64,000 nucleotides of DNA, taken from positions 186,001 through 250,000 of the forward strand of contig JAIOXZ010000001.1 of the NCBI GenBank assembly GCA_021741355.1, given 5' to 3'. Shown here one piece after another: positions 48,367-49,070 of this stretch. Position numbers and translations under genes: made by a program. The number at the start of each line of letters is the position of its first letter. Within the stretch, counting starts at the first letter, position 1. The notes under the pieces are model-generated. The model was not told the DNA's origin. It worked only from the letters and a program-made list of their open reading frames with translations, and searched no databases. The stretch comes from Caulobacter sp. (GTDB lineage Bacteria; Pseudomonadota; Alphaproteobacteria; Caulobacterales; Caulobacteraceae).

Positions 48367-48403
48367 TTGGCGACTCGTTAATCCGCTGCCCATAGTGTGA
48401 GTC
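48367..48403 (+). promoter_or_regulatory. Promoter with two GANTC sites ahead of the 23-codon ORF
   Basis: TTGGCG (48367-48372) and CATAGT (48391-48396) are 18 bp apart. GACTC (48372-48376) overlaps the -35 edge and GAGTC (48399-48403) lies near the expected start of transcription. This layout fits CcrM/GcrA-regulated promoters, in which a methylated GANTC lies in or near the promoter. Confidence 0.5.
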
Positions 48404-48417
48404 CTGTTTCAACAGCT

Positions 48418-48432
48418 GAAAGGAGGTGATCC
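48418..48432 (+). promoter_or_regulatory. 15-nt perfect Shine-Dalgarno (full anti-16S match)
   Basis: GAAAGGAGGTGATCC is the exact complement of the universally conserved 16S rRNA 3' end. The AGGAGG core lies seven bases before the GTG at 48434, so it is correctly placed for translation. Ordinary genes in the window match only four to six bases. Confidence 0.8.
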
Positions 48433-48433
48433 G

Positions 48434-48505
48434 GTGTCTCATCGTATGAACCCGCGGTCGCAGTGCGTGACCCTGAATTCCGTTTCGGCGGAGGTCAGCG
48501 CCTGA
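48434..48505 (+). CDS. Candidate 23-residue small protein
   Basis: The frame GTG...TGA at 48434-48505 encodes 23 residues starting MSHRMNPRSQCVT and ending SAEVSA. Evidence that it is translated is context only: a promoter-like sequence 67 bp upstream, a 15-nt perfect Shine-Dalgarno, correct spacing and a hairpin 41 bp after the stop. The peptide is polar, has one Cys and no membrane segment. It could be a leader peptide, a regulatory small protein, or the RNA itself could be the functional product. I do not recognise it. Confidence 0.5.
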   Translation: MSHRMNPRSQCVTLNSVSAEVSA

Positions 48506-48545
48506 TCAGCGCCTAGCGTTGAGCCGCAACCGCGGCAGACGATGG

Positions 48546-48575
48546 AAGGGCCGCCGGGGCAACCCGGCGGCCCTT
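48546..48575 (+). terminator. Hairpin AAGGGCCGCCGGG-GCAA-CCCGGCGGCCCTT
   Basis: A perfect 13-bp stem with a four-base GCAA loop, ending in TT then CGCATTT. It closes the small unit that begins at 48367. The weak T-run makes strict intrinsic termination less certain. Confidence 0.7.
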
Positions 48576-48629
48576 CGCATTTGGGGGGCGGCGTGGTGGA
48601 CTGGCGTTCAGGACTTTGGGGGATCGTCG

Positions 48630-49070
48630 GTGCGCAGGTTGCTGACAGTCGTGGCGATGGTGGGGGTTGGCATGACCGGAGCCTGTGAACGCGACACCTT
48701 TCGCCTACGCGAGGAAACCCAGACGCAGTTCGATGCGAGTCGCCCGGAGTTCGAGGCCTTGGCCGACAAGGTCCTGCGTTGCCAGGGCCTGACCTCAATC
48801 AGGCTCAAGGATCGAAAGCCGCGCCCGTGTCTCGGCGGTGCCGTCACTCGCGCCGAAATTATCAAAGACCTCAAGCGGCTGAACTTGAAGGGCGTCCACT
48901 GGGCCCAGGACCGGACCTTCGTCCTGCTGGTCAATGGCGAGGAATACGGATTTGGCGACACGCCCTGGGCCGAAAGCGGAATGATCCGCTTCGCCGCGCC
49001 TGAGGAGAACGGACAAGAGTACGCGCTCACCCCGCCACCGCACTATTGGTTCTACACACAGGACCACTAA
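48630..49070 (+). CDS. Putative lipoprotein, unknown function
   Basis: A 146-residue protein starting at GTG 48630 (GGGGGA ribosome site seven bases upstream) with a signal sequence and lipobox-like 'GMTGAC' (Cys near 18). The mature part has two more Cys ('LRCQGLTS', 'PRPCLGGA'), a segment 'EIIKDLKRLNLKGVHWAQDR', and ends in 'HYWFYTQDH'. It appears less GC-rich than its neighbours. No recognisable family. Confidence 0.65.
   Translation: MRRLLTVVAMVGVGMTGACERDTFRLREETQTQFDASRPEFEALADKVLRCQGLTSIRLKDRKPRPCLGGAVTRAEIIKDLKRLNLKGVHWAQDRTFVLLVNGEEYGFGDTPWAESGMIRFAAPEENGQEYALTPPPHYWFYTQDH

Follow-up and report, generated by a model that had tools for sequence, protein, structure and literature searches.

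The catalogued Caulobacter small RNA family RF01867 as a putative Alphaproteobacteria-wide translated RNA with a conserved ribosome site and a variable peptide

Dual-function small RNAs such as SgrS/SgrT and Spot 42 carry a short frame, and their peptides are reported to act. Translational regulators such as the SAM-II riboswitches and the mRNAs of ribosomal proteins use a pseudoknot over the Shine-Dalgarno (SD) sequence or start codon that gates access of the ribosome. Type I toxin mRNAs have a masked SD, end-to-end pairing and a tiny frame. The rnTrpL RNA is a further small RNA with a short frame, whose peptide, peTrpL, is reported to be active in the available part of the source (PMC10117765). 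In Staphylococcus aureus the SD helix extends past its core toward the start codon, and bS21 is argued to hinder this extension in E. coli, according to the accessible portion of that work (PMC13009471). For the RNA family RF01867, or CC2171 ‘caulobacter sRNA’, no description of a function was found in the largely open-access literature searched, where RF01867 appeared in two papers, in each as a row of a table in the text available; Rfam 15 gives the family one added covarying pair, without comment in the accessible text (PMC11701678).

We analysed a window of 64,000 nt from Caulobacter sp. (contig JAIOXZ010000001.1, positions 186,001 to 250,000 of the forward strand), in which a sequence-only reading had described a miniature transcription unit. 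In a scan of the whole window with Rfam 15, the element scored above the gathering score of RF01867 (Table 1), and the window copy aligned over the full model, including the closing helix P1 and the terminator hairpin. The element is thus a member of this catalogued RNA family. The features that had been claimed for it were all present on direct reading: a -35/-10 pair with an 18-nt spacer, two GANTC sites, a 15-nt reverse complement of the 16S rRNA 3′ tail, a 23-codon GTG frame and a 13-bp perfect hairpin. The hairpin arms, 48546-48558 with 48563-48575, form the 13 bp, to which the next G-C pair adds a fourteenth. A consensus scanner called neither a sigma-70 promoter nor a terminator at the element. 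The predicted fold of the likely transcript had a z-score of -4.70 versus shuffles.

Table 1. Features of the RF01867 element, in positions of the whole 64,000-nt window
Feature	Position	Strand	Basis or remark
-35-like hexamer TTGGCG	48367..48372	+	direct reading; weak T-rich peak at the equivalent place in relatives
GANTC site GACTC	48372..48376	.	direct reading
-10-like hexamer CATAGT	48391..48396	+	direct reading; Caulobacteraceae relatives often have CCCATATT here
GANTC site GAGTC	48399..48403	.	direct reading
Likely transcript	48404..48580	+	inferred: start from the -10 position, end from the hairpin
RF01867 (CC2171) match	48410..48574	+	90.3 bits, gathering score 75
Shine-Dalgarno GAAAGGAGGTGATCC, 15 nt, complementary to the 16S rRNA 3′ tail	48418..48432	+	direct reading
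P2 5′ arm: SD tail GAUCCG plus start-codon base 1	48428..48434	+	family covariation
GTG frame, 23 codons and TGA, predicted peptide MSHRMNPRSQCVTLNSVSAEVSA	48434..48505	+	direct reading, comparison
P1 5′ arm UCAUCGU, within the frame start	48439..48445	+	A1 columns 35-41, covarying helix
P2 3′ arm position: CCUGAAU, degraded from the 16S-tail mimic CUGGAUC of relatives	48472..48478	+	alignment
GAUCA at the stop codon, pairing with SD bases UGAUC in the predicted fold	48504..48508	+	prediction only
P1 3′ arm ACGAUGG, abutting the terminator stem	48539..48545	+	covarying helix
Terminator hairpin, 14-bp, GCAA-capped, broken T run	48545..48576	+	direct reading, RF01867 alignment

Matches to RF01867 at E<=0.001 were present in 100 of 200 Caulobacterales genomes (31 above the cut-off) and in 85 of 385 alphaproteobacterial genomes (14 above the cut-off); 8 of the 17 loci without a Caulobacterales label passed the cut-off. 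The SD and short frame, for which the sequence-only reading had proposed a search of Caulobacterales, were examined in 40 further loci of the order. The SD core was present together with a 14-36-codon frame in 38 of them, a count consisting of 37 from a recount and of L175, which the position filter of the recount missed. L183 and L186 matched RF01867 without the SD and were not counted as holding SD and frame. Among 87 further alphaproteobacterial loci (L218-L304), 75 had the SD and such a frame, two (L248, L298) had a gene of 55-56 codons behind the leader and 10 had neither. Pattern scanning of named genomes yielded at least 120 stretches, which came, among those listed, from alphaproteobacterial groups, seven unclassified proteobacteria and one contig of a ‘Ramlibacter’ MAG (L127). 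The latter contig carries a betaproteobacterial name; its sequence is of Caulobacteraceae type, and it may be mis-binned. In a sample of the phylum, the leader pattern was found in 25 of the 67 genomes that were alphaproteobacterial; ten of these hits were inspected, and all proved to be the element. It was also found in 2 of 182 other Pseudomonadota genomes, where both matches were long unrelated genes and were rejected. Seventeen plasmid records, 11 of them Azospirillum, contained short partial matches, and phages gave one match only, at chance level. This distribution indicates that the family is Alphaproteobacteria-wide, beyond Caulobacter.

The sequence of the 16S tail, CTGGATCACCTCCTTTC, was taken from antisense 16S genes of related genomes. 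A 13-mer search did not find the 16S 3′ end in the draft genome of the window, and an SSU rRNA search of the draft found none, the same search being positive in only 9 of 14 control genomes. The 13-mer SD core AAAGGAGGTGATC occurs once in this 3.8-Mb Caulobacter draft, in which AAGGAGGTGA occurs five times. In the source genome and 20 relatives the 13-mer was present in 16 of the 21 genomes, at 25 places; 20 of these were examined, and 11 proved to be antisense 16S genes and 9 the RF01867-type element. The 15-nt complementarity at the element is more than chance, its core being unique in the draft genome. Given the sequence of the tail, members with ATCCAG match 17 nt, and the window copy, with ATCCGG, matches 15. 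The form AAAGGAGGTG-ATCC is kept in 92 of 120 pattern-selected loci among the matches listed. The extreme ribosome site is conserved in the family. Conservation of a complement to the whole 16S tail, and an SD that is unpaired or outside P1, would suit an RNA acting as a passive sink that holds 30S subunits on a dummy frame, a possibility to which we return with the internal helices.

The frame was 14-33 codons long, with a median of 23, in all 114 loci with enough sequence among the matches listed. The standard deviation of its length in these loci was 2.7, compared with 28.6 and 33.1 for the other two frames, each of which was open in 13 of the 114. Among 189 nonredundant members, the start codon was GTG in 157 and ATG in 32, counted with a search expression that admitted these two and excluded TTG; TTG starts also occur in the family, as do one-base changes in the spacing from SD to start. 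Alanine was the last residue in 96 of 194 peptides versus 13.6% alanine inside the frame; as controls, it preceded 25 of 271 out-of-frame stops and ended 38 of 211 neighbouring genes. The terminal alanine codons were GCC 57, GCG 24, GCT 12 and GCA 3, with internal counts, in the same order, of 174, 135, 64 and 36. Interchangeable starts, frame closure and C-terminal alanine support, by comparison of members, translation of the frame. Ala-ended degrons exist, and an alanine end would suit a peptide made for degradation.

If the short peptide were the functional product, the conservation of frame, SD and start codon would be explained, as would the enriched terminal alanine and the common N-terminal MSH, though the MSH codons also lie within P1. 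Against this, 53 independent pairs of similar members, compared without their first four codons, gave a dN/dS of 0.87 (bootstrap 0.67-1.11). The other two frames of the same pairs gave 0.79 and 1.03, and changes were spread evenly over the codon positions (109/102/94), without a codon-position bias. RNA structure could restrain synonymous changes as well, so dN/dS alone is no proof. In addition, residue 4 changes along with its RNA partner (pair 39-203, below), peptides of different lineages have little in common past the first three residues, and the window peptide has no Pfam match. We therefore consider a functional peptide improbable. The test for synonymous-substitution bias proposed at the outset thus gave no purifying signal on the peptide; as for the highly translated small protein suggested then, translation is supported by comparison and a functional peptide is not, and relatives keep the SD but not the peptide. 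A type I toxin-like mRNA, with a short frame, a masked SD and a closing helix, would be alike in anatomy. However, a hydrophobic stretch of 15 residues is present in just 8 of 194 peptides, and the peptide is not conserved. The candidate was rejected for the want of a hydrophobic membrane peptide, and we regard it as highly improbable. These results are most simply explained if translation is kept while its product is not, which suggests that engagement of the RNA by ribosomes outweighs the peptide that is made.

The internal structure of the RNA was compared in an alignment, A1, of 86 sequences. After the start-codon count, L191, a 58-residue gene, was removed from the 189 members, as were 2 of the remaining 188 without a found terminator; of the 186 left, only members of 135 to 205 nt were considered, and these yielded 112 representatives. 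Twenty-six of the 112 were left out of A1 by hand for leader type, frame length or odd length, before helix P2 was noticed. The swap, complement-position and C-terminal alanine tests used 194 of 198 representatives, kept by their SD letters, and the table of base partners covers the 79 of these 194 with ATCC and the motif NGG[AGT]TC.

In helix P1, the beginning of the frame is joined to the bases that precede the terminator. In A1, 94.9% of its cells are paired compared with 91.8% after shuffling, and 19 cells have double changes compared with 4.0 (0 of 500 shuffles as high); double changes here and below were counted without a tree, and kinship among the sequences inflates all shuffle and swap tests. 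When the P1 arm was slid along the alignment, pairing reached 60.8% at most, and the swap test by leader type gave z -9.3 and -7.0. Pair 39-203 is U-A in 70 sequences, C-G in 6, U-G in 5, A-U in 3, G-C in 1 and other in 1; since this pair covaries, residue 4 of the peptide follows the RNA.

In helix P2, the SD tail, GAUCCAG, base-pairs with an in-frame mimic of the 16S tail, CUGGAUC, located at about +40 of the frame; this helix is missing from the RF01867 structure line in the window alignment. Paired cells in A1 amount to 86.0% versus 82.6% shuffled, double-change cells to 19 versus 5.8 (0/500) and covariation to 0.198 versus 0.144 (0/500); the number of pairs with double changes was not above shuffles (196/500). 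A slid P2 arm paired to 53.6% at most. Pair 29-72, whose base on the SD side stands past the ATCC core, is A-U in 61 sequences, G-C in 6, C-G in 3, U-A in 1 and other in 14; non-pairing thus concerns 14 of 85 sequences at 29-72, and it concerns 39 of 86 at 25-76. The double changes at 29-72 lie in separate groups: G-C in Acetobacteraceae/Rhodospirillales, C-G in Azospirillum and L140, and U-A in L169 (Caulobacterales). Where the base after ATCC is A (n=53), T stands before GG[AGT]TC in 23 sequences, 8 are mixed including T and 22 are without T; G has the partner C in 11 of 15 with one further mixed, T has A in 4 of 9 with one further mixed, and C has G in 2 of 2.

Exchange of SDs between members was consistent with P2. 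The duplex of a member's SD with its own interior scored -16.57 compared with -15.52 when exchanged (z -9.6, 0/300); the z was -2.8 (2/300) for minority SDs only (n=88), and -7.8 and -3.9 by leader type. When representatives were ranked with dinucleotide shuffles, they fell in the best 5 of 100 in 45% of cases for the MSH type (n=148) and in 48% for the others (n=50). The strongest complement to a member's own SD lay inside the frame in 157 of 194 members versus 105 of 194 after shuffling, and the correlation of mimic position with frame length was 0.36 for a null of 0.28 +/- 0.12, a result that carries no information. In nested ensembles of the 86 A1 members, by a method that cannot form the crossing helices together, the probability of P1 exceeded 0.5 in 62 and that of P2 in 9. 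P1 and P2 were shown, as far as aligned members reveal, to covary across the family. Since the two helices cross, their joint formation would yield a pseudoknot covering the start site, and we infer that this pseudoknot forms and masks the site in the cell.

A covarying internal anti-SD would oppose a pure sink, and a frame of at least 14 codons is kept; having its own covarying anti-SD, the family seems closer to a switch than to a passive sink. We find the sink unlikely. Of the earlier suggestion of an RNA that sequesters 30S subunits, the conserved complement to the full 16S tail stands, and the internal competitor speaks against it. An ordinary base-pairing small RNA with a frame for a second purpose would fit the small, predicted intergenic transcript with its terminator-like hairpin, and C. 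crescentus small RNAs with anti-SD motifs are known from the available part of one report (PMC12559287). However, the most conserved part of the RNA is the SD and the frame start, with one obvious partner, 16S rRNA; its middle is poorly conserved in A1, and by dN/dS (0.87, 0.67-1.11) the peptide shows no sign of selection. A dual-function small RNA of this kind seems to us improbable as well.

Several variants were recorded in the family. A second leader type, MSS (AUG-UCG/UCU-AGU-GA), is found in L171, L173-L181, L187, L244, L249, L253, L265, L277 and others, and its members have, toward the end of the frame, a conserved GGAGCARCCUYC similar to a bulged version of the 16S tail. L037, L062, L118, L132 and L256 have a frame of 14-17 codons (e.g. 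MSHSKRCHLAGAAR) with a likely anti-SD, UCACCUC, earlier in the frame. The same leader precedes a divergent Caulobacter type, MSHLSI... (L100, L172, L184, L185, L188, L196), which is the sole RF01867 match found in three of its genomes. One genome (G211) has two copies of the element, L235 and L278, with different frames. In L191, L248 and L298, secreted-protein-like genes of 55-58 codons stand behind the same extended SD, one of them in Azospirillum thermophilum. The RF01867 match of L008 is 263 nt long, with an inverted-repeat insertion between the frame and the P1 3′ arm; its frame is intact.

Upstream of the element, 260 distinct family sequences show a T-rich triplet at -52..-50 and C-rich bases near -30, both weak at about 0.2-0.3 bits. 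Of 232 nonredundant members, 77 have a GANTC in the interval 10-70 nt upstream of the SD, whereas five control bins give 15-34 of 232; the sites peak at -50..-30. Two thirds of members are without a site, and control motifs rise in the same interval too (AGNCT 52 vs 22-35, CTNAG 36 vs 10-25). GANTC as a fixed feature of the family was consequently rejected, and its enrichment points only faintly to the cell-cycle timing that the sequence-only reading had suggested.

The window RNA is flanked by a DUF3617 gene and by a frame with no Pfam match, and acyl-CoA dehydrogenase, methyltransferase and patatin genes are near it. The co-oriented frame downstream in the window, 48630-49070, begins like a lipoprotein and has no Pfam match. 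A leader peptide or attenuator acting on the gene that follows would likewise have a short frame ahead of a hairpin. By a crude GC-position gene predictor, however, the first gene downstream runs on the opposite strand at 86 of 131 loci and is co-oriented at 45, and 262 neighbour genes fall into 148 clusters, the largest of 17. Control of a neighbour gene was rejected on the orientation and clustering of the neighbours, and we give a leader or attenuator very little credence.

We believe, with a probability of about one half, that the element is a self-masking switch for ribosome engagement, the local member of the stand-alone transcript family RF01867 that appears to span the Alphaproteobacteria. 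Its SD, covering the entire 16S 3′ tail, would capture 30S subunits, and the captured ribosome would translate the frame into a short, disposable peptide. The SD would alternate between the 16S tail and the in-frame copy of the tail (P2), and the frame start could pair with the stretch immediately ahead of the terminator (P1), so that a ribosome initiating and reading through the frame would have to open both helices. The selected output would then be ribosome engagement itself, with the RNA open when initiating ribosomes are plentiful and otherwise closed. Against the switch, the window copy of P2 is weak, with 5 of 7 pairs and rank 30 of 100 versus shuffles, which is not better than chance sequences; its nested ensemble gives P1 and P2 zero weight and prefers other pairs, and its predicted fold masks the SD with stop-codon bases instead of P2. 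In the available part of Schrader 2014 (PMC4117421), moreover, two C. crescentus RNAs once predicted to be non-coding undergo translation, and most ncRNA regions do not.

Two extensions of the switch are more tentative. The open or closed state may set the stability or availability of the RNA and hence report or buffer initiation capacity, a suggestion that we hold with considerable reserve. Somewhat more doubtful still is the idea that, throughout the class, this RNA senses the condition of the small subunit as its 15-17-nt SD reads the whole mature 16S tail in competition with the internal copy. The extended SD helix and the argument for hindrance by bS21, as given in the accessible portion of PMC13009471, suggest such a sensor. 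Its pseudoknot would be opened only by subunits with a complete, exposed tail (e.g. without obstructing bS21, or fully matured), and the read-out would be translation of a meaningless frame.

A catalogued ‘Caulobacter sRNA’ thus looks like an Alphaproteobacteria-wide translated RNA that keeps its frame and not its peptide, and whose covarying in-frame mimic of the 16S tail would be a competitor of the ribosome. If true, an RNA would have ribosome engagement itself as a regulated output, and C. crescentus, the species in which the family received its name, would be a model for it. It also cautions that a translated small frame need not imply a functional peptide.

The RF01867 CC2171 entry and the window RNA share the leader, the P1 helix and the terminator. 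The entry is named as a Caulobacter non-coding sRNA, a name that implies its detection in C. crescentus, whereas the family as seen here appears Alphaproteobacteria-wide, with a conserved frame and an extra putative helix, P2. The predicted pseudoknot over the SD and start site resembles that of translational pseudoknot regulators; unlike them, the RF01867 RNA is without a conserved downstream gene or a conserved product, and to our knowledge it has no ligand. CrfA and SisA-D (alphaR8) of C. crescentus are likewise small RNAs in which an SD-like or anti-SD sequence matters, and they act via Hfq-linked RNA pairing, according to the available part of the source (PMC12559287); the RF01867 RNA has instead a 16S-complementary SD and a frame that is probably translated. 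It differs from rnTrpL/peTrpL, SgrS/SgrT and Spot 42 in that its peptide sequence is free to change. Finally, the extended SD of Staphylococcus aureus is, in the portion of that work available, a general feature of mRNAs, whereas RF01867 is usually one RNA per genome with its own internal competitor.
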